Virus record (IMG/VR): IMGVR_UViG_3300050821_000116
Location: 1 to 26,976 of that record
Length of the DNA stretch: 26,976 nt
Reading direction: 5' to 3' (one strand)
Source of the DNA: a virus
Part shown: positions 9,026 to 26,976 of the stretch, piece by piece
Position numbering within the stretch: the first letter of the stretch is position 1
Layout: every line of letters begins with the position of its first letter
Translations under genes and position numbers: made by a program
Notes under the pieces: generated by a model
What the model saw: only the letters and a program-made list of their open reading frames with translations
The model's database searches: none
Told to the model about the DNA's origin: nothing

Positions 9026-9733
9026 ATGCCAGTCAGAGTGCGAGACATTGTTAACGCAGTAATCACCGAACTGTCTCAGGTTCCAGGCGTGGCTACACAG
9101 TTGTATTCTGCGAACAGGATACAGCAGCATGTGCAAGATGCATTCCAGATGGAGTTCGATGACTTCTGGTGGCCTCAGTATGAAACGTTCGTGCAATCAG
9201 GGTTGGATGGTGCGACTGGTGCACTAACACAAGATCTGCAAGGACCGCTCGGGTTCATCACCGACTACACCAACATCAAGAGTGTATGGCCTGGGGTTAC
9301 GCAGCGCAAGGTGCGTGAACTGCCACAGTCAGTTAATCCGTATGCACTCAGTGGTGCTACGTGGCCCATGTATATGGTGCCCGACTACACGGTGCCGAAC
9401 AGGCCATTCAAAGTATTCCCGGTTACTGCTACGGGCACAGTCACAGTGCAGGCCGTGCAGCGTCCCACGATGCCTCTCAGTCTGGACACGGTGCTCTACC
9501 TCGACATGCTCATGCTGCAATACGATGCAGCATGGATGTATTGCGTGGATGATGGCACGATCCCAGCACAGGTGAATAAGTTCCAGACGCTTGCAGCGAA
9601 ACGTCGCACGATCGCGCGTAGCATGACTAGTCAGCAGCCGATCCCGCTCGATCCGCGTCGCATGAGCGAAGAGTTCATGGGAGATAGCGTGGACAGTAGT
9701 TACTTCGTGTTGGATCAGGACCCGCTTGCATGA
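9026..9733 (+). CDS. Probable head-tail adaptor (T7 gp11 / P22 gp4-like role)
   Basis: The 235-residue protein is predicted to join the portal to the tail nozzle. Its N-terminus ([15 protein letters not shown]) and the segment [20 protein letters not shown] are helical and match the pattern of podovirus adaptor proteins. The middle ([11 protein letters not shown] ... [27 protein letters not shown]) is strand-rich. The C-terminus has a long helix ([19 protein letters not shown]) followed by an Arg-rich helix and a tail. The length fits T7 gp11 (about 196) and P22 gp4 (about 166) with some extra. Its placement ahead of the nozzle-like protein, interrupted by one fibre gene, supports the call. 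The next gene overlaps as ATGA. Confidence 0.7.
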
Positions 9734-11313
9734 GCACGACGTTCTCACGTGGTGAAAATCCACTGAAGGCTGACAAGCTAAACACAGCACTCAGTGAGCG
9801 TGTCGCGCGCAGTGGCGATACGATGACTGGGATACTGACGTTAGCACGCGATCCCATTGCAGCGTTCGATGCAGCGACCAAGCAGTATGTAGATGTAAGT
9901 GGTAAGCCAGGACCAAGTGGATCACCGGGACCGCCAGGACCGGCTGGGCCTACTGGTGCTACTGGTGCTACAGGTCCACAAGGTCCACCGGGTGCAACTG
10001 GTGCAGTAGGTGCAACGGGTCCTGCTGGACCGACAGGTGCAACTGGCAACCAAGGACCGCAGGGAACACAAGGACCGATAGGATTAACTGGTCCTGCTGG
10101 ACCGAAAGGTGATCCAGGCTCACCTGGATCACAAGGACCACAAGGTAACATTGGTCCAGCGGGTGCAACTGGACCGCAAGGCAACACTGGTGCACAGGGC
10201 GTAACAGGAGCAACTGGATCACAAGGACCGATAGGCAACACTGGTCCGCAAGGATCGACAGGCCCGAAAGGTGCAGACTCTACTGTGCCGGGACCGACAG
10301 GACCGACAGGTGCAACCGGCCCAACAGGACCACAAGGCACGACAGGCGCAACTGGTGCAACGGGACCAACAGGCCCAGCAGGGAGTGCTGGAGATGTAGG
10401 ACGCAACATCCTCCATAATGCACAAATCAACATATTGCAGCGTGGCGCAGGGCCATGGACAACAAGTGTTTACACGGCAGATCGGTGGGCCGTATCCGCT
10501 GTAGGCGGCTCGACAAGCATATCCGTTGTTGCTCTCACAGACGCAGATCGCACAGCGATAGGAGATGAAGCAGCAGCCCATGCAATACGGGCTGTCGTAG
10601 TAGGCAACGCAGCAGCAGGATCATATTCTGAATTTTTCCAGGGCATTGAATTAATACGACGGTTATCGGGTAAGACAGTCACCGTCAGCTTCTGGGCTAA
10701 GGCTGCGAGCGGAACACCAAAGATAGGAGTATCGCTAGACCAGTATTTCGGTAGTGGGGGCTCACCGTCGGCAGGCGTTTTTATGACTGGCATCCCTGTC
10801 ACGATCAGCACGACAATGACCCGCTACACAGTGACGTTCCCTGTCCCAAGCACAGCGGGGAAGGTGTTTGGCACGAACGGTGATGATTTCTACTATTTGC
10901 AGTTTTGGTTTAGTTCGGGAAGCACCAACAATGTTTACGCGGGTAGTATCGGTGTGCAAAGCGGCACGTTCACACTATGGGGTATGCAACTTGAAATTGC
11001 CAGCGCCGCGACGCCGCTAGAGAAGCTAGACCCACAGCAGGACTTGGCGAATTGCCAACGGTTCTATTGTCTCGTTCAGTGTGTTGCGAACGGATACGGA
11101 CTAGCGGGCATGGGCGTTGGTCAGACAGTCTCTCTACCAGTCGCCCCACGTAGGGGGCCTATACTTACTCCAACTGGCAATTCCAGTGCGAACTTAAACG
11201 CTACCGCGGTGCAGGGGATAGGTGATGGAACACAGGTATGGGTGAATAGCACCGTGGTTGCAGACGGAGGTTGGGTCATCAATCTAGTCTTCACCGCCAG
11301 CGCGGATTTATAG
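9730..11313 (+). CDS. Collagen-like fibre protein
   Basis: The 527-residue protein has three parts. Residues 1-57 contain [10 protein letters not shown] and DAATKQYVD, a short attachment-type motif common in phage fibres and also present in the S74 fibre at 13012. Residues 58-223 are collagen-like Gly-X-Y: about 42 triplets, a break at STVP (184-187), then about 12 more, rich in GPT, GAT, GPQ and GPA, expected to form a trimeric triple helix. Residues 224-527 are a globular tip with a carbohydrate-binding-like sandwich ([40 protein letters not shown]) and a final beta-rich part. The gene sits between adaptor and nozzle genes (ATGA with the former, TAG directly abutting ATG of the latter). Host-surface binding is inferred; a capsid-attached head fibre is the alternative. 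Confidence 0.85.
9901..10398 (+). repeat. Gly-X-Y triplet-coding repeat region
   Basis: A nine-base-periodic, low-complexity stretch encodes about 54 Gly-X-Y triplets with one interruption near 10279-10290. Such DNA is prone to slippage, so fibre length may vary between related phages. The long open frame on the opposite strand here is a by-product of this composition. Confidence 0.85.
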
Positions 11314-14724: not shown

Positions 14725-14903
14725 GACAGCAACCGATCGAACCGAACACACCATTGAGCGTGACGCTAAGTGCAGCAGAGTGGAACAATGTCGTAGAGGT
14801 GCTGCGCAAGGCACCGTATGAGCAGGTGGTGGGTGCGATCCAGGCGATCGTAGGCCAGTGCATGACTGAGGCTGATCGTGCAAATAACCCGCCTGGGGCC
14901 TGA
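14721..14903 (+). CDS. Small conserved-looking phage protein of 60 residues
   Basis: The protein starts at GTG 14721 in a GTGA overlap with the S74 fibre stop. It has one compact core, TLSAAEWNNVVEVLRKAPYEQVVGAIQAIVGQ, predicted as two helices, followed by a short polar tail. This layout (S.AEWN.V...L...PY..V...I..I) is familiar from small proteins in phage structural clusters, but no function is known to me. The 3' end overlaps the next gene by 26 bases in another frame. Coding is supported by the coupled start and the amphipathic helices rather than by length. Confidence 0.7.
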   Translation: MRQQPIEPNTPLSVTLSAAEWNNVVEVLRKAPYEQVVGAIQAIVGQCMTEADRANNPPGA

Positions 14904-15345
14904 CAACATTGGATACGCGGTCGGACTTGCCAAGGAGTTGCATAGTCTTGGCACGTTCGGTCACGAAGGACCGGAGTTCGATTGGGACTTCTGCAAGGGA
15001 ACCATGCAGGGCGTGATGCACGATCCGAACTACTACTTCGCACTGGCACACAACAAGGGCAGCTACGTTGGTGCCGTATGCGGCAAGGTCGTGCAGTTCT
15101 ACTTCAGTCCTAAGATCATGGGGATTGAGGATGCATGGTATGTGCGTGAGGGCACGGTGAAGCGTGCTGCTACTGGCATCGCACTGATGCGTGGGTTCGT
15201 TTCTTGGTGCCTCGACATCAAGGGTGCAATGCTGGTGCAGTCAGGTGATGTGGCAGGCATCAACACAGTCGGTGTGGATGCGATGTATCGACACATGGGG
15301 TTCACAAGGTTCGGGACCATCTACAGATACAAGAGGAATGTGTGA
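14878..15345 (+). CDS. GNAT-fold-like protein at the T7 gp13 position
   Basis: The 155-residue protein resembles a GCN5-type N-acetyltransferase. It has an N-terminal ITRLGPDNIGYAVGLAKEL helix region, central strands (YYFALAHNKGSYVGAVCGKVV and EDAWYVREGTV) and a C-terminal MYRHMGFTRFGTIYRYKR that is the usual GNAT ending. The acetyl-CoA pyrophosphate loop is degenerate: where Q/R-x-x-G-x-A is expected it reads RAATGIAL. The GTG at 14878 is chosen because GAGG at 14868-14871 precedes it by six bases and because the next ATG would remove the first strand and helix. It lies between nozzle/fibre genes and the ejection-protein genes, where T7 has gp13. It could be an active acetyltransferase or a fold used structurally; acetyl-CoA binding is not assured. 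Confidence 0.65.
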   Translation: MQITRLGPDNIGYAVGLAKELHSLGTFGHEGPEFDWDFCKGTMQGVMHDPNYYFALAHNKGSYVGAVCGKVVQFYFSPKIMGIEDAWYVREGTVKRAATGIALMRGFVSWCLDIKGAMLVQSGDVAGINTVGVDAMYRHMGFTRFGTIYRYKRNV

Positions 15346-16475
15346 TGTTTACATCCGGTGGTCAGCCTGAACTGTGCATCATGTTGCGTGGTGGAGGCAA
15401 GGGAGGTGGTGGTGCGGCTGCTGCTCCACCGGCGCTATCGCCTACTGTGCTGACTGATCCGGTGAGCGGTAAGTCGTTCATCGACAATCCGCAGTATGAC
15501 GCAAACGGCAAGGTCATCCCTGGCACGTCTGCACAGGACCAGTTGAATGCTGAGATCACGCAGCGGCAGGCTGATGAGCAGTCTAAGTCTGATGCGGCCA
15601 CGGCTCAGGCACAAGCAGATGCTGCTGCAAAAGAGCAAGGGTTCCAGACCAGTCGGCAGTCGGCGTATGACACTGCGATGCAACAGGCCATACGTGCATT
15701 CCAGTTGCAGGGTGTGGACCCGAACCAGTATATGGCGAGTGACATCACACCAGCATTGCAGCGTCAGTTCCAATCCATACAAGATCTGGACCCCAACCCG
15801 ACCGCAGCATTCCCGACCAACCTCGGTGATACGATCGTCAACCAAGTCACGGCAGGCAAGCGCACACAGGCAGGCAATGCACTGAACAGTCTGTTCGCAC
15901 CAACGTATGCTGACACGCAGTTGCCTGACACGATGACCAGTGACTACGTGAACAATATCGTCAACCAGCAGTTCGATCCACTGAGCCAGCAGCTTATCAA
16001 TGCGCAGAAGCGAGGCACGCTCAATGATCCTGGCTACCAGGCCGCAGTGAATGCACTGAATACGAAGAAGGCTGCGGCTACGTCACAAGTGAATACACTA
16101 GGCCAAGGCATCCTATCCACCGACCGCAATGCACTGAATGATTACATCAGTGGTGCGAAGACCAGTGCGAACAGCCTATCGCTGGCTGACCAGTTCGACC
16201 CGAACACGTATGCCACAGGCGCACAGGGCAAGGTGGCCAGTGACGTGAGTGGCTTCGGTGGAGCGTTGCAGACAGCAGTTGGTGATACGCAGTTCGCCAA
16301 CCTGAATGATCTGATTAACGCAGGCGGTGCAGTACAGGGTAGCCAGAACCCGAACGCAGCCAACCCGAACGGTGTGCCGACCGCAGCAGGTGGTGGCAAT
16401 CTGTCGCCTAGCTTCGTGTCACAGGATGAGTTGGCCAAGCAGACACGTGGCCTCGGTAACACGGGCGCATTCTGA
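15345..16475 (+). CDS. Probable internal virion (ejection) protein
   Basis: The protein of about 376 residues is rich in Ala, Gln, Asn and Gly and has no cysteine-rich or enzyme motif. A glycine-rich N-terminal stretch (LRGGGKGGGGAAAAPPA) resembles the start of many podovirus core proteins. Residues 60-120 are a long polar helix (QLNAEITQRQADEQSK, DAATAQAQADAAAKE), and the middle carries further helical Gln/Asn-rich segments. Such proteins sit in the head above the portal and pass into the host with the DNA. An AAGAGGA site at 15331-15337 is seven bases before the ATG at 15345; the GTG at 15342 is an alternative start. Next gene overlaps as TGATG. Assignment is by composition and position. 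Confidence 0.65.
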   Translation: MFTSGGQPELCIMLRGGGKGGGGAAAAPPALSPTVLTDPVSGKSFIDNPQYDANGKVIPGTSAQDQLNAEITQRQADEQSKSDAATAQAQADAAAKEQGFQTSRQSAYDTAMQQAIRAFQLQGVDPNQYMASDITPALQRQFQSIQDLDPNPTAAFPTNLGDTIVNQVTAGKRTQAGNALNSLFAPTYADTQLPDTMTSDYVNNIVNQQFDPLSQQLINAQKRGTLNDPGYQAAVNALNTKKAAATSQVNTLGQGILSTDRNALNDYISGAKTSANSLSLADQFDPNTYATGAQGKVASDVSGFGGALQTAVGDTQFANLNDLINAGGAVQGSQNPNAANPNGVPTAAGGGNLSPSFVSQDELAKQTRGLGNTGAF

Positions 16476-16924
16476 TGGAGATGCAGGAAGAGAATGTGCA
16501 AGAAGTCTACCAGGAGATGGACGAGATCTTGCACAACTACTTCAGGTTGACGATCGCCAAGGAGGGACTGCCGCCACTCAACATGGATTGGCGAACCTAC
16601 TTCACGTTGGACCAGCATGGCAACCTGCTGGTAATCACAGCACGACATAAACTCACCATGCTCGGGTTCGTGATGTATCACATGCACACGCACCTGCACC
16701 ATAACGGCGTAGCGATGGCTGCATGTGACATCCTGGCAGTAGATCTGAAGTTCCGTGGTAAGGGCATCGCACGCAAGATCATGGAGTATGCTGAGAGTGC
16801 ATTGCGTGCTAGAGGGATACGGCAGATCATACACATGTCTCGGACATGCTATGACGCAGAGCCTCTGTTTCCGAAGCTAGGCTACAGGCTCTTTGAGCAG
16901 AGCTTTATCAAGGAACTCAAGTAA
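16475..16924 (+). CDS. GNAT family acetyltransferase within the ejection-protein cluster
   Basis: The 149-residue protein has clear GNAT motif A: CDILAVDLKFRGKGIARKI at about residues 84-103, where the strand AVDLKFRGKGIA carries the R-x-x-G-x-A acetyl-CoA loop (RGKGIA). Strands before it (LLVITARHKL, LGFVMYHM) and the C-terminal AEPLFPKLGYRLFEQSFIKEL complete the fold. The family transfers acetyl groups from acetyl-CoA to amines of proteins or small molecules; the substrate here is unknown. It sits between two ejection-protein genes and is joined to both by one-base overlaps (TGATG, TAATG), so it is made late with the virion proteins. It may be packaged and injected, or may modify virion or host proteins late in infection; both are inference. 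Confidence 0.85.
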   Translation: MEMQEENVQEVYQEMDEILHNYFRLTIAKEGLPPLNMDWRTYFTLDQHGNLLVITARHKLTMLGFVMYHMHTHLHHNGVAMAACDILAVDLKFRGKGIARKIMEYAESALRARGIRQIIHMSRTCYDAEPLFPKLGYRLFEQSFIKELK

Positions 16925-18069: not shown

Positions 18070-19070
18070 TGCCTACTGCTTCTGCATACGGCACGACTAA
18101 TCCTCGCGGCCTAGAGCCATGGCCGATCGAGCAGACGCTTGCTCCACTTGCTGTCGGCAACAGTCAGGCCGAAGCGCAGATGATGCTGGAGAACTACCAG
18201 CAACAGCGTGATGCTGCGGCGAACGTATACAGTGGTGACTTGCAGCAGCAGCACCAGTATGCCTATGACCAGTTGGCGCAACAACTACAAGAAGCCAATA
18301 TGAAGGCACTGCCTGAGAATGCAAAGGCAGGAACGCTCGGTATCATGGCGTCGTCACCTGCATATCAGGGAGTGTTTGGTGGTGCTGATCCTGGGAGCAT
18401 AGCAGCGGCAATCGGTCAGTCCACTCGATTGCAGAACGCAGACATTGCACAGAAGGGTGGTGCTGCTACGTGGTCACTTGCCAACGCTGGTATGCCTGCA
18501 ACACAAGCCGACGTGCAGGGTATCACTGGGTTGAATGTAAATCCTGGCACATCGATACCTGTGCAGGTTGCGAACATTAAGTTGCAAGGTGATCTAGCAC
18601 GAGCGAATGCTTCATCACGTGCTGCTGGTCCACGCACGAGCACAGACTTCACCAACCCGTATGGCGGCAAGACAACCGTTAGCTTCCCTGCTGGTATGTC
18701 GCAGGCACAGCGTGATGCATACTTGCAGAATGAAGGTGGACTGGTTCCTATCGATCGGCCACCACCGAATGCACCACTCCCCAACACCACGACAGCACCG
18801 AACCAACCGCCAAATAGAACCAACCTGCCCGTGGCAAAGACAGACACGCCAGCTAACAATCCACCACGGGCACAGAACACTGCTGCTGGTGCTGCAGCTG
18901 CACGGCAACAGGTGCTCTCACAGCTTGATGCTATTCAGAACTCGCATCCACAGGTGTATGCCGACATCAAGGCAGGCATGACGAAGAACAATGGCGTGCC
19001 CAACATTGTAGCTGATCCAAGCAAGGCCGGTGGCTTTGCAGTAGTTGGAGCCACCGGGACACATTACTGA
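18069..19070 (+). CDS. Probable internal virion (ejection) protein
   Basis: The 333-residue protein is unrecognised by motif. The N-terminal half is helical (EAQMMLENYQQQRDAAANVY, YDQLAQQLQEANMKAL). Then comes a Gly/Ala-rich stretch (GGADPGSIAAAIGQ) and a central PYGGKTTVSFPAGMSQAQRDAY motif. A proline- and asparagine-rich linker at about 222-275 leads to a last helical part. Its one-base overlaps with a core-type gene before and the giant core gene after make it part of the ejection set. Its place corresponds to gp15 in T7 order but it is less than half that length, so equivalence is not claimed. Confidence 0.65.
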   Translation: MPTASAYGTTNPRGLEPWPIEQTLAPLAVGNSQAEAQMMLENYQQQRDAAANVYSGDLQQQHQYAYDQLAQQLQEANMKALPENAKAGTLGIMASSPAYQGVFGGADPGSIAAAIGQSTRLQNADIAQKGGAATWSLANAGMPATQADVQGITGLNVNPGTSIPVQVANIKLQGDLARANASSRAAGPRTSTDFTNPYGGKTTVSFPAGMSQAQRDAYLQNEGGLVPIDRPPPNAPLPNTTTAPNQPPNRTNLPVAKTDTPANNPPRAQNTAAGAAAARQQVLSQLDAIQNSHPQVYADIKAGMTKNNGVPNIVADPSKAGGFAVVGATGTHY

Positions 19071-22000
19071 TGCCACTCCCTAACTACGACGAGTATGGCA
19101 TACCGATAGGACCAGAGGGCGACGAGCAGCGCAAGGCTGCACTCGCAGCGATGGGCCAGACTACTAACGCTGCTGGATCGATGATCCTCGGCAGTGTTGC
19201 ACCTGACCCTAAGCTGCCTGGACTGGCAGGTTACATACCGTTCGCTGGTGCAGCCGAAGGGCTGATGGGCACGGCTGGCTATCTCGGATCGCAGGTAGCA
19301 CGACTAGCGAACAGCGACCCGAATAGCCTCGCTGCAAAGTGGGGAATACATATCCCCGATCCTCCACAGATACTCAGTGATGCAGGACAGCGGTTCGAGC
19401 AGAACCGTGCAGACATCAAGGCAGGTATTGATAAGTACTCAGGTGGTGTGCTGCCTCAGCCTGACATGAGCACTACCGCTGGCAACGTCGCAGACATCTA
19501 CGGCAGTGCACTCGGTGCTGGTGTAGGCTTTGCACCCGGTGGTATCGTCAATGCATTGCCGCGCGGCCTGAAGACAGTTGGCTCGGTGCTGCTGCCATCG
19601 CTTGAGCACGCAGGCAAGAGCGTGCCGGTCGCAACTGGCATTGGATTGACACAGGGCATGGCTGATCTGGCAGTTAACCCTGTGCAAGCTGCACCGACAC
19701 AACCACAGCAGCAGCAGGCGCCAGACCCCACGACTGTAGCTACAACGACGACACCACCATCGGCTGACACAATTGTGCAGCAAGCTGTGACACCAGCGGC
19801 GCAGCCTGCACCTGATCCCCACTCGATCCTGTTCGGGACGCAGCCAACTACTCCTGACGTGCACGACAGCCTGTTCGGCACTACACCGGCTGGACCTACG
19901 TTCACACAGCAGGGCAGCACACCGACACCGTTGTGGCAAGCTGGCCTTGGGATAATCCTGACGCTAGGTGCGCTCGCCGCTGGCAAAGCCACGCACAGCA
20001 TGGGTGCAGCCATAACTGATGCTGGACGTGATGCGCGGTTCAGCAATCCTGACTACGCAGCGAAGGTGAATGACTACAACAACGATGTGATGTCGCGTGG
20101 TGCTGGTAGTGGTACGCTGGTCCCGCCGGGCGGTGCACCGACGAATGCACCCACTCCGAAGGCTTCGCCACTGAACTCGACCGTCACATACCTCGCTGAC
20201 AAGGTAGGCAATGATGTTGCAGGAGCGCAGAGCTATGTGAACCTGACCAGTGCTGATCCACACTTGGCTGATCGACTGACGAGCCAGATGGGGAATGTGT
20301 ATGACACGCAGTTGCAGCAGAATAAGATCCGCAACTTCCTAGCCACAGGCTACGACAAGACCACGAACACCACCATCCCAAGTATGCAGGGTGTGCTCGA
20401 CAAGTACGCACGTCTGTCACCAGATCAACAGATCGCACTGACTGAAGGACTGAAGGCACAGGACGAAATCAACACACGTGATCGGAACACACAGCTATGG
20501 CAGCAAGCTAACGGCCCAGGAGCAACGCCATCACTTGAGGATGTTGCACACAACTTGTTTGGTCATGGCACGGATGAGCTACGGCAAAAGGCTGCTGCTA
20601 TGCAGGCCGATCCACAGCTTGCAGACATAGCCACAGACTACAAGGGCATCACCGACGGACTGATTAAGGTTGGTGTGCATCCTAGCTATGGCTTCTTCAC
20701 ACCGAGTGAAGCCAGTGATCTACTGAAGTTCCGTCCGAACTACGTGCCCGAGATGGATGTGAATGGCAAGCCCATGCACGCATTTGGGCCACGTGACACG
20801 AGCGCATACACAGGGCAGGCACAGATCGTGACAAACCCCGTGTTCGATCTGGCACAGCATGTGGAGCAGTTGTATCCGCAGTTCGAGCGCAACAGACTCA
20901 ACCAGAACTTGATGAACCATCAGACGGATGTGCAACGTGTGTATCCGCAGGGTGCTCAGTCTTTGGTTGATATACAGGCACCAACAGGAGCACATGCATC
21001 TTACTATCCACAGAGTGGAATGCCTGGAGTGGGAGCAGGACAGGTGCGTGACTCAATTGTGTCTGTCCGCACGGCAAGCGGCACGAAATATCTGCGCATC
21101 GATGACCCTGTGCTGTATGATATCATGACGAACCATAGCCTGGGCAATGCCCATGTCCAGCTTGGTGCACTGAACACAGCACGTAGGATATTCCAACAGA
21201 CCACGACAGGCACGGCAGGTGCAGTGCTGACGACACGGCTTGTCCCAGGACGTACTGCGGCTGCTGTGGCAATGCTTGCACCTTTCAATGCACCAGACAG
21301 ACTGTATGCTGGTATGGCAGACCGTGCTGTGCAGAGGACAGCAGGCGTTACGTCTGGGCTCGCTCGTGGTGCCGACGTGATAGGCAATCTAGCTGGCGTT
21401 CCTATGAGCTATGCGATGGGTTTGGCAGACAGACGGATCAAGAACTTCGCTGACATATTCCATCCAGAAGCGTCCAACCCAGCGAACAAGATGCTACGTG
21501 CTATAGCTGGTGATCCGGTCGTTGATGCTATTCACCAACACGCAGAGAATGTATGGCAGAACAGTGACACGAAACAGATCAAGGACCTGAACATATCTGG
21601 TGCAGGAACTGTCGGCACACTTGATGCACCCGGTGTGCTAACTGGTAAGAAGGGTGGACCGCTCGGCATGTCAGGTGCTGGTGTGCGGTTGCAGTCCGCT
21701 AACTTGTCGCCACATGCATTCTTCGATGGGCAGTGGATGGGTGCGAAGCCATATGTCATCAACCTGCGCAACGCAATGGCTGAAGCATTCACCAACATCA
21801 GTGATGCAGGTCATGACTACGTAGCTCGACTGAACCTAGACAACCCGAACATCGATCCTGAGTCACTCACTTACAACGTGCGTAACCTGTATGGCAACCC
21901 AGGACGTAAGGGCAGCAGCTATCTAGCACAGAAGGGTGCAGGCTACATACCATGGCTGAATGTAGGTATGCAGGAGCTTGGTAGCACAGCGAAAGCCGTC

Positions 22001-23188
22001 ACCAACAACGTTCCGCGCACTGCACTGACGATGGCTACAGGCATGGGAACGCTGGCACTGTTGCAGATCCTCACGCACATGCGCAGTGCAGCACACATGG
22101 ACTTCTTGCAGAACCAGTTGTCGTTACAGCAGCGTGAGGCCAATGTCACGCTGGCACTTGATCCTGATCCGACGAAGCCAACGATGATACCGTTGCCTCG
22201 TAGCCTACGCATGGCGAACGCATTCATGCTCGATGTCATGTCGAAGGCAGTGAACACGATAGCTGCACGACATGACCCTGACGTGTTCAACGGAGTGTGG
22301 GAAGGGATCAAGGACTTTCTGAGTGGTCATATCACTACCAGTACAGCGATGGCGATACGCCATGCCGGTGTGGACATGGGCGACATGTTCAACCTGCCAC
22401 CGATACTCGGTCACATAGACTACAACAGCATCATCAGCAATGGGCTGTCAAACATAGCTGGTGCAATACATGGACCGACTTCTGGGCGCGTGGATAGACA
22501 GGTGCCAGGTGAGACACCTGAACCGCTGGATAGCAAGAACGGTGAAATCTTCAGGAACATCCTGGCCAATGTGATCGGTGCTGGTGCTGCATCGCTGTAT
22601 GACAGTGGTGCCAACATACTGCGCTACCATGCTCAAGGCAACTCGTATTGGGATAGCATGGGCATGGGCATCCATGACTGGTTGCAGCATGGACATGAGA
22701 CGAACCCGATGCTGTTCGAGGGGCCGATCAGGTTGTCGATGCAACCACCGATCGCTGAGACTGTGCAGCCTACATTGCTTGCACTGAAGCAGTTGCCACA
22801 GATACCCGACGTTGGCACAGCAGGCTACACAACTGGTGGTCCGGCACGCTTGCCTATGCCTGGAGGTGGTGGTCCTCCACCTGTATCCAACGACATGCTA
22901 GTGCGCCAGATGCTGATGTCTGCACATGCATATAGCGGTAGGATCGATCAAGCGATGGCACCGATCCTTGCAATCAAGCAGCAGATGAGTGGTGTCGAGA
23001 AGCAGGGGATGGACCCTGTAGAACGGCGCAACTGGTTGAACCAACAGACACGTGCAATGGCAGATCGCTACAAGTTGGTGGACTCGCTGGCCGATGACAT
23101 GTATGTCACACTGAGTAAGTTGGCAGGGAAACCTATCACCAGCTTGGGACAGATCAACTGGCAGCAGGATAGCTCGCAGTTCAAATGA
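19070..23188 (+). CDS. Giant internal virion (ejection) protein, 1372 residues
   Basis: At 1372 residues this is the last and largest gene of the structural block, like T7 gp16 (1318) in place and size. It is predicted to be packed in the capsid core and to form the conduit into the host cytoplasm. Hydrophobic segments occur near residues 289-304 (AGLGIILTLGALAAGKA) and 982-1004 (RTALTMATGMGTLALLQIL). A Thr/Pro/Gln-rich linker spans about 205-285 and carries a repeated short motif, PDPHSILFGTQP and PDVHDSLFGTTP. The middle contains a folded region with LLKFRPNYVPEMDV. The C-terminal half (KPTMIPLPRSLRMANAF, NGVWEGIKDFLSGHI) resembles the C-terminal domains I recall from large phage polyvalent-type proteins. 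No lytic transglycosylase motif (E-S...GLMQ) was found at the N-terminus, unlike T7 gp16. The stop lies in the 8-base convergent overlap with the helicase gene. Confidence 0.75.
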   Translation: MPLPNYDEYGIPIGPEGDEQRKAALAAMGQTTNAAGSMILGSVAPDPKLPGLAGYIPFAGAAEGLMGTAGYLGSQVARLANSDPNSLAAKWGIHIPDPPQILSDAGQRFEQNRADIKAGIDKYSGGVLPQPDMSTTAGNVADIYGSALGAGVGFAPGGIVNALPRGLKTVGSVLLPSLEHAGKSVPVATGIGLTQGMADLAVNPVQAAPTQPQQQQAPDPTTVATTTTPPSADTIVQQAVTPAAQPAPDPHSILFGTQPTTPDVHDSLFGTTPAGPTFTQQGSTPTPLWQAGLGIILTLGALAAGKATHSMGAAITDAGRDARFSNPDYAAKVNDYNNDVMSRGAGSGTLVPPGGAPTNAPTPKASPLNSTVTYLADKVGNDVAGAQSYVNLTSADPHLADRLTSQMGNVYDTQLQQNKIRNFLATGYDKTTNTTIPSMQGVLDKYARLSPDQQIALTEGLKAQDEINTRDRNTQLWQQANGPGATPSLEDVAHNLFGHGTDELRQKAAAMQADPQLADIATDYKGITDGLIKVGVHPSYGFFTPSEASDLLKFRPNYVPEMDVNGKPMHAFGPRDTSAYTGQAQIVTNPVFDLAQHVEQLYPQFERNRLNQNLMNHQTDVQRVYPQGAQSLVDIQAPTGAHASYYPQSGMPGVGAGQVRDSIVSVRTASGTKYLRIDDPVLYDIMTNHSLGNAHVQLGALNTARRIFQQTTTGTAGAVLTTRLVPGRTAAAVAMLAPFNAPDRLYAGMADRAVQRTAGVTSGLARGADVIGNLAGVPMSYAMGLADRRIKNFADIFHPEASNPANKMLRAIAGDPVVDAIHQHAENVWQNSDTKQIKDLNISGAGTVGTLDAPGVLTGKKGGPLGMSGAGVRLQSANLSPHAFFDGQWMGAKPYVINLRNAMAEAFTNISDAGHDYVARLNLDNPNIDPESLTYNVRNLYGNPGRKGSSYLAQKGAGYIPWLNVGMQELGSTAKAVTNNVPRTALTMATGMGTLALLQILTHMRSAAHMDFLQNQLSLQQREANVTLALDPDPTKPTMIPLPRSLRMANAFMLDVMSKAVNTIAARHDPDVFNGVWEGIKDFLSGHITTSTAMAIRHAGVDMGDMFNLPPILGHIDYNSIISNGLSNIAGAIHGPTSGRVDRQVPGETPEPLDSKNGEIFRNILANVIGAGAASLYDSGANILRYHAQGNSYWDSMGMGIHDWLQHGHETNPMLFEGPIRLSMQPPIAETVQPTLLALKQLPQIPDVGTAGYTTGGPARLPMPGGGGPPPVSNDMLVRQMLMSAHAYSGRIDQAMAPILAIKQQMSGVEKQGMDPVERRNWLNQQTRAMADRYKLVDSLADDMYVTLSKLAGKPITSLGQINWQQDSSQFK

Positions 23189-23191
23189 ACT
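23178..23191. other. Palindromic tail-to-tail overlap of the two gene blocks
   Basis: AGTTCA-AA-TGAACT spans both stop codons: TGA of the giant ejection gene at 23186-23188 and, on the other strand, TGA of the helicase gene at 23181-23183. There is no room for a separate terminator, and the five- to six-pair stem is too short to act as one. The two transcripts must overlap unless stopped elsewhere. Confidence 0.6.
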
Positions 23192-24434
23192 TCTCTAGCA
23201 CCTGTTCACCTAGTCCCTTGGACAGCAACACGTTGGTGCCACGGAAGTACTCGGCAGGTCGGCCATAGTCCTGTAGCTTGTCAGTGAACCGTTGCACAGC
23301 ACCGAGTTCGTGCAGCACTTCCAGCAGTGCGTTGAACTCCTGTATGTCCAGGCCACGTCTACACTTGCGTGCTAGGGCAGTGCGCTGCACCGGGTCCATA
23401 CCAGCACTGATAAGTGTCGATCGTAGCGAGTCCAGCGATGCAGCGAACTTGCTGCGAACCTCTGCACCCTCGAAGATCACACCGCTGCCATCCTTTACTT
23501 CGTGGACCAGTCGAATGGCACAGACGATATGGCCATGATCGATGCGCCACGAGCCGTCGTTGATGCAGAGTAGTGCAGCGACACGGAGGACGTGCGAATC
23601 TTCACGCGCTTCGAACGATTGTCGATAAGTGTCCAACGCACGATCGCGCTTGTTATACCATCCACGGAAGGCAGCCATTGCACCCTCAGTGAGTAGGATA
23701 GGTTCGCTGTTGGTAGCTCTGGTTCGGATGGATCGGAGATCAGCGAGCAACCAGGATCTGTCATCAGATGTGTCCGTGCCATCAGGCCATGGTATCTTCT
23801 GCTTAGGCTCATTGGAGAAGATGAACATGCAGCGTGACGTGAAGCCGCCCTCTACCACGTTTGGATTGACTGTCTTGAGTAGCCATATAGGGGTGCTAGC
23901 GGATAGGAAAGAGATCCACACGTTGCGCTGGATACATGACCCGCGCTCAATGGTACCACCACCGTGCCTGTGCGAAGGGCAGTCGTAGAGATCAGTGAGC
24001 AGCGTGGGCATATGTGCAGTGTAGCGTTCGGTGCCCAGGAACACAGCCAGCTCAGGGATGGCAATGCAAAGCTGTGCATTACCGAACTCCATGGTGCTCT
24101 GGTGCAAGATGTCATCTAGCTTCTCTGGTGTCATCTTCGCATCAAGGTAGCCGATCTCATGCGTGGCACTCAGGACTGTGCGCACCAGACCACCGGCAGT
24201 GGATACGCTCGTAGTCTTGCGTGCTACACCACTCTCACCCACGAGGATCAAGTACATGTTGAGGAAGACAGGTGCACGTGGTCGTGCAACGTAGACTTCA
24301 CGACCACATACCCCAGCGATCGCCCACAAACTACACCACCAATCGAATGCGTAAGCAGTCTCCTGCCTCTGCATGAACCGGAGGTATCGACCTATGAAAC
24401 TGTCCTCTGGGACTAGCTTCAGGTAACTCTTCAT
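23181..24434 (-). CDS. DUF3987-like helicase/primase-type ATPase
   Basis: The 417-residue protein matches the DUF3987 family of phage and mobile-element replication ATPases. Visible parts are a Walker-A-like loop LVGESGVARKTTS at about 64-76, an acidic Walker-B-like strand CIAIPELAVFLG (Glu128), a sensor region WISFLSASTP at 173-182 and an arginine finger candidate in VEGGFTSRCMFIF (Arg201). The Walker A is unusual: the lysine at 73 is seven rather than six residues after Gly66 and is preceded by Arg where Gly is expected. The family is thought to act in replication as a helicase-like partner of primases or polymerases; here it is probably the replicative helicase of the phage. It overlaps the endonuclease gene as ATGA and has no clear ribosome binding site, so it depends on coupled translation. 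Confidence 0.8.
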   Translation of the reverse strand: MKSYLKLVPEDSFIGRYLRFMQRQETAYAFDWWCSLWAIAGVCGREVYVARPRAPVFLNMYLILVGESGVARKTTSVSTAGGLVRTVLSATHEIGYLDAKMTPEKLDDILHQSTMEFGNAQLCIAIPELAVFLGTERYTAHMPTLLTDLYDCPSHRHGGGTIERGSCIQRNVWISFLSASTPIWLLKTVNPNVVEGGFTSRCMFIFSNEPKQKIPWPDGTDTSDDRSWLLADLRSIRTRATNSEPILLTEGAMAAFRGWYNKRDRALDTYRQSFEAREDSHVLRVAALLCINDGSWRIDHGHIVCAIRLVHEVKDGSGVIFEGAEVRSKFAASLDSLRSTLISAGMDPVQRTALARKCRRGLDIQEFNALLEVLHELGAVQRFTDKLQDYGRPAEYFRGTNVLLSKGLGEQVLEKFI

Positions 24435-24913
24435 GGGAAGTTCAATACAGCAAACTCTCCATGATATAATAGAGCAGCTTCATCGTAGGCAGCAGCCGCT
24501 TGTTCCGCAGTTTCAAATGTGCCTAGGTAACGCTTTCGTCCTGTGTTGTCTCGTATTCTTGCTATCCATCGTTCACTGTAATGATGTTTGTATACACCTC
24601 GATATCCTGATCCGCTTTCCGTTTGCGGTTGGATAATATTTTGTCCATTTCTCTGCCAGTCCGCAAGCCTCATGTTATATCTTTGACAGTTCAAGCCATC
24701 TCTGTCTTTGTGGTCTACCTGTATCTCGGGAGGCAATTTTAGGATAAATCTGTGAAGATATATCCTTGCCGCATTTCTGCCTTGGAATAGATTGCTCGAT
24801 GCATAGCAAGTATTTGGCCTTATACTTACAGCCCAATTATAGCCCACAACAGTTTCGTAGTCTTCGTCGTCTACAAGAGCTACATAGCCTTGGGTGAGCT
24901 GAACTTCTTTCAT
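24431..24913 (-). CDS. HNH-AP2 homing-type endonuclease
   Basis: The 160-residue protein has an HNH nuclease core, IQVDHKDRDGLNCQRYNMR at about 65-82 with Asp67-His68 and Asn75/Asn80, and a C-terminal AP2-type DNA-binding domain from about 103 (YRGVYK ... RWIARI ... RYLGTFETAEQAAAAYDEAA). This is the layout of free-standing phage homing endonucleases, which cut genomes lacking the gene and so spread it. The ATG at 24911-24913 is chosen because GAAGG lies seven bases upstream (24921-24925) and the longer in-frame extension back to 25048 runs through polymerase coding sequence. Both ends overlap neighbours as ATGA. The gene is clearly more AT-rich than its neighbours, a sign of transfer. Confidence 0.92.
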   Translation of the reverse strand: MKEVQLTQGYVALVDDEDYETVVGYNWAVSIRPNTCYASSNLFQGRNAARIYLHRFILKLPPEIQVDHKDRDGLNCQRYNMRLADWQRNGQNIIQPQTESGSGYRGVYKHHYSERWIARIRDNTGRKRYLGTFETAEQAAAAYDEAALLYHGEFAVLNFP

Positions 24914-26976
24914 GCTGTCACCTTCTCGATACCACTCCACCGATGCACCCCGTCCTTGTCTGGCTTCGACACGCCTAGTTCGGCAGGCACGATCAGCTTC
25001 GTCGGGTTGTCGATCCCGTCTAGCCTGTTCTTCACGCTGTTGATCCACAGCGGTTCCTCAGCATACCGCTTCATGATGGCCCTGACAACCGGCCCGTCCT
25101 CGATCTTGTTCAACGCGATGTTGGCATCATGCACATTGATCGAGATGCGGGCGGTTGCAGGCCACTCAGGATCAGAGTGACACTTGTAGATTACACTTGC
25201 AGTGTGGTCGCCGTTGATCGACTGCGGCTCGAACGCAACGATGCTGTCTAGGGCTGCATCGTCCCATCGTTCCATAAGCAACCATCGTCGTCCGAGGCAG
25301 GTTGTAATAGCACGGTCCCTGCGGACGAGTGAAACCAAGTCATCCCACCACACAGTGACTTCTGGAGTTGCCATGTGGTAGAGTCGATAGGCTTGTTCAG
25401 CTTCGACAGCAGGGAGTCCAGTGACTGTGGCAAGCCGATCTGCGGCCATCCTGTAGTTGAGGCCGTGGCGACATCGTTTGGCAACATACCGAATGGTATG
25501 TCCACCTGCTCCGTCGTGATCCTTTCTCGGAACTTGCTCATAGTCCACCTTGAACATCGTAGAGGCTAGAGCACAATGTGCATCGTATGTTCCTGGATGC
25601 AAGCGAGCTTTTTCAAATTGGTCAAGCCACACAGGGATGTGTGCCAAACAGGCAACTATCCTAGCCTCGACTTGTGACATATCGAAGTAGCTGAACTCCC
25701 AGCCAGGCGGTGCAACGAACATTCCTTTCGCATTCTCTGGGATGTTCTGCATGTTTAGTCCAGTTCCCCAGGCAGTCTGCGAACTACTCAGTCGCCCAGG
25801 TGCAGAGGCTACTCCGGTTTGCTTGTAGGCGCATCGCCAGCGTCCGTCGGTGTCTGGCTCTGCGTTGACGTAGGTGCTGACGAACTTGGCCTCTTGTAAG
25901 TATCGATCAATGGCCGTGATAAGGTCTCTAGCTGGTGCTGGAGTTCTTGGGTGGCGCCTAATACGGTCACGATTTTCCTTATCAGTGCTATTTCCTCTGC
26001 CGACCAAGTGTAACTCTCCAAAGAGGAGATTAGCGAGCTGCATAGGGGACCTGGGATTGAAGCTGAAATCTGGTATGCCAGTTGCCACACGAGCCTTGCT
26101 TTGGCATAACTCGTTTGCAGTTTCCAGGCTTCGTCCAAGCTCATCGGCGAACTGTGATTGCAGTCGCTCATCGACACCCACTCCGTTGACTGTCATTTGC
26201 ACAAGCTCAGGCTGCAATCGCATGACATGCGAGTGGAACCGCTCATGCATTCCTGCGTCTAATAGTTCACGCTCCATTGCCTCGGCAGCAATCCGTGTGA
26301 TGCAACAGTCAGTAACGTTGTATCGCCAGAACGCATCGATGTCACCCTCTTCTTTCCATAGCTGGCCGTCGTCCTTGTAGTAGGGGTGATCGGTATATTG
26401 GGCTGTGATGAAACCCAGATCATGTGGCAGTCCGGGGTATAGGTAATGATGTGCGAGCATCGTGTCGAACCAATGCGAGTGAACGCGGATGCGGTCCTTG
26501 AACCAAAGCCACGTTGCATCATAGTGGCCGTTCTGCGCCACGAGTTGCAGCGTAGGTTTCGATAGAAGATCTTGGAGTTCCAGCCGGATGGTCTGCTCTT
26601 GTGCAAGCGTATAGTGGTTCTCCCCTTGACTACGAAAGTTGATGCAGATGCCAACCTCGTTGGATGGCGCGAAACCAACACATGCTGTTTCTCCAGCCAT
26701 CGTCTCAATGTCGTAGGCAACGGGAGCATTGAGAGTCTTTGCCCATCGAATGAAATCAAGCGCCTCGGTGTAGGTGGGATTGATGAGAGCATCAATGTGT
26801 GGAACATTGAACGTGCCTTCTCGCAATTTGGTTAGCTTGCCCAGGTCCATACGGAACACAATCTCCATGCGCGGTTCACGCATTACGTGGGCGGGATTGT
26901 AGGTAGCCAGGACTTGCACTCGATTGCCACCGATGTCCACTGGGAAGACTGATCCCCTAGCTTTGGTAATTGCTTC
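24910..26976 (-). CDS. polA: Family A DNA polymerase with 3'-5' exonuclease, N-terminally fused (5' end outside window)
   Basis: The visible 688 residues run open to the right edge, so the gene is partial. Numbering here starts at the GTG complementary to 26938-26940, which is not claimed as the true start. The proofreading domain shows Exo I YDIET (Asp77, Glu79), Exo II NGHYD (Asn137, Asp141) and Exo III YNVTD (Tyr207, Asp211). The polymerase domain has motif A FDMSQVEAR (Asp420, Glu425), motif B RYVAKRCRHGLNYR (Arg484, Lys488) and motif C NVHDANI (His604, Asp605). Two positions are odd: His492 stands where E. coli Pol I has Phe762, and Ala606 stands where the HDE glutamate is expected. Upstream the frame continues into a UDG-like segment. 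It copies the phage genome, with the helicase-type gene two places downstream. The stop overlaps the endonuclease ATG (ATGA). Confidence 0.93.
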   Translation of the reverse strand, partial: EAITKARGSVFPVDIGGNRVQVLATYNPAHVMREPRMEIVFRMDLGKLTKLREGTFNVPHIDALINPTYTEALDFIRWAKTLNAPVAYDIETMAGETACVGFAPSNEVGICINFRSQGENHYTLAQEQTIRLELQDLLSKPTLQLVAQNGHYDATWLWFKDRIRVHSHWFDTMLAHHYLYPGLPHDLGFITAQYTDHPYYKDDGQLWKEEGDIDAFWRYNVTDCCITRIAAEAMERELLDAGMHERFHSHVMRLQPELVQMTVNGVGVDERLQSQFADELGRSLETANELCQSKARVATGIPDFSFNPRSPMQLANLLFGELHLVGRGNSTDKENRDRIRRHPRTPAPARDLITAIDRYLQEAKFVSTYVNAEPDTDGRWRCAYKQTGVASAPGRLSSSQTAWGTGLNMQNIPENAKGMFVAPPGWEFSYFDMSQVEARIVACLAHIPVWLDQFEKARLHPGTYDAHCALASTMFKVDYEQVPRKDHDGAGGHTIRYVAKRCRHGLNYRMAADRLATVTGLPAVEAEQAYRLYHMATPEVTVWWDDLVSLVRRDRAITTCLGRRWLLMERWDDAALDSIVAFEPQSINGDHTASVIYKCHSDPEWPATARISINVHDANIALNKIEDGPVVRAIMKRYAEEPLWINSVKNRLDGIDNPTKLIVPAELGVSKPDKDGVHRWSGIEKVTA
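24921..24925 (-). promoter_or_regulatory. Ribosome binding site of the HNH endonuclease
   Basis: GAAGG on the minus strand precedes the endonuclease ATG by seven bases while lying inside the last codons of the polymerase gene. It decides the short start over the long one. Confidence 0.6.
26833..26976 (-). other. C-terminal end of a uracil-DNA-glycosylase-like domain fused to the polymerase
   Basis: In frame with the polymerase, the first 48 visible residues read ITKARGSVFP, then VLATYNPAHVMREP and DLGKL. Family 4 and related UDGs end with a strand, the motif T-x-HP(S/A)..(L)LR and a helix, and some phage family A polymerases carry such a domain at the N-terminus (SPO1-type). The likeness in order and spacing is good, but the histidine of the HP motif is asparagine here (TYNPAHVMR). 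Only the end of the domain is inside the window, so activity cannot be judged. Confidence 0.6.

Follow-up and report, generated by a model that had tools for sequence, protein, structure and literature searches.

Histidine at position 762 marks an apparently undescribed clade of viral family A DNA polymerases

The entire linear IMG/VR record analysed here (26,976 bases, hereafter the window) encodes at its right end a family A DNA polymerase that carries histidine at the position of Phe762 in E. coli Pol I. His762 marks a large and old clade of viral PolA proteins, which is apparently undescribed. Our preferred reading, to which we assign a probability of roughly 60%, is that the enzyme is a replicative, proofreading family A polymerase of a deep phage clade, in which His762 was gained once and then kept within a rebuilt nucleotide pocket that alters nucleotide selection. 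In viral ecology, residue 762 serves to mark polymerase type and phage lifestyle. As the initial annotation of this DNA had stated, the residue is normally Phe, Tyr or Leu, affects nucleotide incorporation and has a proposed link to lifestyle, in agreement with published work (PMC6302109; PMC9069017; PMC13228545).

The polymerase gene and its genomic context

The source is a soil-type phage. From the size of relatives its genome probably spans 40-47 kb; the record is a fragment. The plus strand encodes phage structural genes (large terminase, portal, major head protein and tail fibre), and the right end of the window carries replication genes on the minus strand. Of the polymerase gene (24910-26976, minus strand) 688 codons are present, as its 5′ end is cut by the contig end. 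Its product matches PF00476 with 104.6 bits against a curated cut-off of 34.3, PF01612 with 33.3 bits, also over the cut-off, and phrog_17 (1.7e-71). PF01612 corresponds to a 3′-5′ proofreading exonuclease domain (26296-26715, minus strand) with DIET, NxxxD and YxxxD motifs. Complete relatives of the polymerase have about 820-900 codons and carry a uracil-DNA-glycosylase (UDG)-like domain (PF03167) at the N-terminus, most of which lies beyond the point where the window gene is cut off. Between the polymerase and primase genes lies an HNH endonuclease gene with an AP2 domain (24431-24913, minus strand; phrog_99, 6.3e-32; PF00847), whose ATG overlaps the polymerase stop codon. The primase/helicase, a replication partner gene, is DUF3987-like and matches phrog_14296 (23181-24434, minus strand).

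The structural block also contains a gene for a collagen-like Gly-X-Y protein (PF01391) that also has a carbohydrate-binding-like domain (9730-11313, plus strand), and two acetyltransferase-like (GNAT) genes lie among the structural genes (14878-15345 and 16475-16924, plus strand). A 1372-residue protein with neither a Pfam nor a PHROG match is encoded at 19070-23188 (plus strand), in a position like that of a large internal virion protein.

Assignment of residue 762

The initial annotation had read motif B as RYVAKRCRHGLNYR, with His (codon CAC) at position 762, and had named no strand; the motif lies on the minus strand, and the position of the histidine was borne out by three alignments. 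Taq F667 was aligned with window His504 (25465-25467, minus strand) by phmmer, and with MAFFT E. coli K-12 PolA F762 and His504 shared a column, R754, K758, G763 and Y766 being in register. Aligning the relative from phage Mel-JY34 against Bst gave His at 762 as well. Motif B, the O-helix (25450-25491, minus strand), also holds Asn507 (25456-25458, minus strand), equivalent to Pol I position 765 and co-occurring with His762, and Arg501 (25474-25476, minus strand), equivalent to Pol I 759 and Taq 664. Elsewhere on the minus strand, motif A FSYFDMSQVEARIVA (25651-25695) keeps D705 and E710, Ala581 (25234-25236; Pol I 845) belongs to the residue set that goes with His762, and motif C INVHDANIALN (25108-25140) keeps H881 and D882, with Ala at E883.

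Membership in family A is evident from the presence of Asp705, Asp882, R754, K758 and Y766 in the window protein and from its palm-fingers-thumb fold. An AlphaFold model built with 46 sequences, a check that had been proposed beforehand, reached a mean pLDDT of 90.9 and placed His504 within helix 495-506, and the best Foldseek matches of the model were the Bst, Klenow, Taq and phage G20c polymerases, with TM (target) values up to 0.81. The structure supports the fold and the helix, while the assignment of residue 762 itself comes from the mutually agreeing sequence alignments. With His at this position the window protein falls outside the F, Y and L types of the Nasko/Keown scheme.

Spread of His762 among relatives

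Two scans of viral contigs found 22 and at least 405 relatives, and the best 80 of the 405 were used. All were recruited by similarity, with residue 762 ignored, but they do not amount to an unbiased sample of family A polymerases overall. Tabulating residue 762 across relatives, as the initial annotation had suggested, gave His in all 94 rows that cover motif B among the best matches listed, window included. Among these best matches, CAC encoded the histidine in 53 and CAT in 40 of the 93 codons examined, and His in all 94 rows, with both codons in use, goes well past what chance or sequencing error could produce. After thinning to below 80% identity, His762 was still present in 46 of 46 rows, down to 18-26% identity. 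When distant relatives, named phages and outgroups were added, the 111 distinct sequences had His (91), Phe (16), Tyr (3) or Leu (1) at this position.

Cultivated or named phages with His762 include Pseudomonas phage PaP2, Polaromonas phage Tiera, Caulobacter phage Kuura, Vibrio phage VS-ABTNL-3, Microcystis phage Mel-JY34 and a Desulfofustis phage, and Pseudomonas phages 119X and PaMx share about 99% identity with PaP2 in this protein. His762 was also found on phage-like contigs in bacterial and archaeal metagenome-assembled genomes (MAGs). Integrated His762 copies were considered and rejected: the best genome-contig matches were MAG contigs, which may be binned phage contigs, and the Bacillus matches have Leu762. 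In several His762 relatives the polymerase gene is split by extra DNA (L113, 4001-7060; L114, 4001-7099; L159, 8001-10715), and in L159 the protein alignment breaks directly after His762-Gly763.

One His762 clade, with a probable single origin

A tree of 65 sequences was built with the columns around residue 762 (motif B) removed. The 46 His762 rows and one Tyr762 row formed a single group with an SH-aLRT of 99, and residue 762 changed twice on the tree, where 16.7 changes were expected under shuffled labels. In a careful tree from which three very long branches were left out, support for the clade was 87/95; the two trees cover 62-65 sequences. The window lies inside this proposed His762 clade, for which the tree points to a single origin even when motif B is disregarded. 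The claim that histidine at 762 would mark an uncommon polymerase clade was therefore right as to a distinct clade but not as to its rarity, as at least 405 related IMG/VR stretches exist. Similarly, the observation that 'YG' is replaced by 'YR' applies to the window subclade (27 of 28), but other His762 lineages differ.

The simplest reading of these sequences is a single gain of His, followed by no more than one reversion to Tyr. In the single Tyr762 row (L115; MW202554, 1727-4364) the motif KRIRYAFGYR has R759/R761/R767 as in the window subclade, but N765, A845 and P848 are lacking. It is a possible natural reversal to Tyr762 and as such of use for comparison.

Residues accompanying His762 and a proposed mechanism

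We compared the 46 His762 sequences with 19 F/Y/L sequences. Asn765 occurs in 42 of the 46 and in none of the 19, which mostly have Leu, Ile or Val there. Ala845 is present in all 46, whereas position 845 is Asn in 16 of the 19, and Pro848 and Ser850 are each found in 44 of the 46 His762 rows. D705, Y766, Q849, H881 and D882 never vary, and only one row has lost K758; within the window subclade 705, 754, 758, 766 and 882 are invariant and Arg759 is fixed (28 of 28). The window clade accordingly shares D705, K758, Y766, H881 and D882 with the F/Y/L762 viral PolA types (Nasko 2018, PMC6302109; Keown 2022, PMC9069017) and differs from them in combining His762 with Asn765, Ala845 and Pro848. Since the co-occurring residues share one phylogenetic origin, their association is no independent proof of contact. 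Asn765 is a plausible partner of His762, because 765 is the position of Bst V713, where the V713P replacement gave a half-closed 'ajar' state (PMC12756729).

We propose that an aromatic residue at 762 was replaced by His once in a deep phage clade and has since been retained. His762 would lie on the dNTP face of the O-helix, like Phe762, and would pack against the sugar of the incoming nucleotide in place of Phe, and Asn765, one helical turn on, may position it in a rebuilt pocket. An enzyme with such a pocket would depart from the F, Y and L types in how it selects nucleotides (sugar discrimination, fidelity and speed), and the exonuclease would correct the resulting errors. We predict that the enzyme is active as a replicase, proofreads and has a changed nucleotide selection, though the effect of His762 could be small. 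As to the equivalent position in other polymerases, F667Y and Y526F alter ddNTP discrimination (PMC4215692), and T7 is slowed by Y526F and Y526L (PMC13228545).

The O-helix of the window subclade is basic (K758, R759, R761), which should make base selection less strict and help the enzyme to extend past damage, with the exonuclease compensating. Taq T664R, at the 759 equivalent, lowers fidelity (PMC4215692). Human and zebrafish POLN likewise have a basic O-helix residue at the 759 equivalent, which governs fidelity and lesion bypass, fidelity being low in human POLN (PMC4591814); POLN, however, is eukaryotic, whereas the phage enzyme has His762 and a proofreading domain. POLG Y955H was rejected as a disease parallel, because POLG R943/K947/Y951/Y955 match 754/758/762/766, so that Y955 corresponds to position 766 and not 762.

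The alternative that survives best is that His762 is neutral or nearly so and kept by descent, with compensated enzymes behaving as ordinary Phe762 polymerases. The single origin of His762 and the change of other pocket residues alongside it would fit this, as would the Bradyrhizobium phages, which show that 762 type alone does not set lifestyle (PMC12632393). Even so, His762 has been held at 18-26% identity while positions 755-757, 759-761, 764 and 767-769 drift, which points to purifying selection, and replacing the position-762 residue in T7 or Taq has strong effects. We regard neutrality as unlikely, though a serious contender.

Partner genes and lifestyle

The phrog_14296 primase/helicase is encoded in 23 of 30 His762 genomes and in both of two further records (one of which, PaP2, is also among the 30). 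It was also present in both tested Tyr/Phe lineages inside or beside the clade (L115 and vir526), and in none of 15 F/Y/L phages outside it. As in the F/Y/L762 types, the 762 type here tracks phylogeny and replication partner genes, the difference being that the partner is phrog_14296; a comparable tie of helicase type to 762 type has been reported (PMC6302109). The link to ribonucleotide reductase reported for the F and Y types did not extend to this clade, as none was found in the 30 His762 genomes. A tyrosine integrase was found in only one of the 30 and a resolvase in none. These counts weakly favour a virulent lifestyle, with which they are consistent, but they leave virulence unproven, because many of the genomes are contigs of uncertain completeness.

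The gene content also bears on the idea, which we consider improbable, that His762 adapts the polymerase to a modified nucleotide of the phage genome, comparable to DpoZ and 2-aminoadenine. DpoZ of vibriophage phiVC8 is, like the window enzyme, a phage family A polymerase that departs in motif B, and its O-helix departures accompany base modification (PMC8599892). It differs, however, in its motif B residues L455 and F459 and in the presence of Z-DNA genes, and the DpoZ group is recognised by Phe in place of Tyr766 and by PurZ in the genome. The steric-gate Tyr766 is kept in all His762 rows, and neither a PurZ/PurA-like gene (PF00709) nor a member of the thymidylate synthase/hydroxymethylase family (PF00303) was found in the 30 His762 genomes.

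That the gene encodes a degraded or accessory (repair) polymerase and not the replicase seems equally improbable. The Ala at motif C Glu883 and the degenerate UDG domain of the window subclade could be taken that way, but E883 is likewise A, S or Q in 13 of the 19 F/Y/L rows, and both catalytic Asp residues, K758, Y766 and the exonuclease motifs are conserved. Moreover, no other gene of the window contig matches PF00476, and the polymerase gene lies near that of the primase/helicase. A sequencing or alignment artefact is refuted by the concurrence of dozens of independent contigs and cultivated phages and by the agreement of three alignments.

Relation to described polymerase types

No description of the His762 type was found in the literature searched, which makes it apparently rather than provenly undescribed; His762 sequences are already in databases, annotated plainly as DNA polymerase. 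The table of Nasko 2018 lists F, Y and L only and has no His column (PMC6302109). Keown 2022 searched IMG/VR and retained a sequence only if its residue 762 was F, L or Y (PMC9069017), a filter by which the His762 type was discarded. The 762 marker scheme is thus incomplete, since that filter left out a large clade with a fourth residue. More tentatively, the His762 polymerases may make up a major natural class of their own, the fourth in viral PolA, with a distinct nucleotide-selection chemistry (a His762-Asn765-Ala845 pocket and, in the window subclade, a POLN-like basic O-helix), namely a replicative proofreading enzyme that combines altered sugar or base selection with tolerance of template damage; we hold this wider claim to be possible rather than probable. 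Changing residue 762 altered T7 infection (2026 preprint), and as cultivated members of the clade exist, it is directly measurable how a natural His762 affects fidelity, speed and the use of ddNTPs as well as the growth of the phage. The O-helix solution of the His762 type may also serve polymerase engineering.

The polymerase of PaP2/119X, like that of Polaromonas phage Tiera, shares His762, Asn765 and Ala845 and an adjoining phrog_14296 primase gene with the window, but its identity to the window is only about 22% over the polymerase region and its motif B, KKIVHGTNYMM, lacks R759/R761/R767. Microcystis phage Mel-JY34 and Manatee Spring phage MW202489 combine a UDG domain with a His762 polymerase and an adjoining DUF3987/phrog_14296 gene, and of the two only MW202489 has an exonuclease match over the cut-off. 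They differ from the window in identity (about 26%) and in motif B, which reads HGTNYGG or HGTNYLG. In L004, L009-L017 and other complete relatives the UDG-like domain (the N-terminal 180 residues) has NPA in place of HP[SA] and few of the expected cysteines. In the window subclade this domain may sense uracil without being catalytic. In the Mel-JY34/Manatee subclade HPS or HPA is mostly retained.
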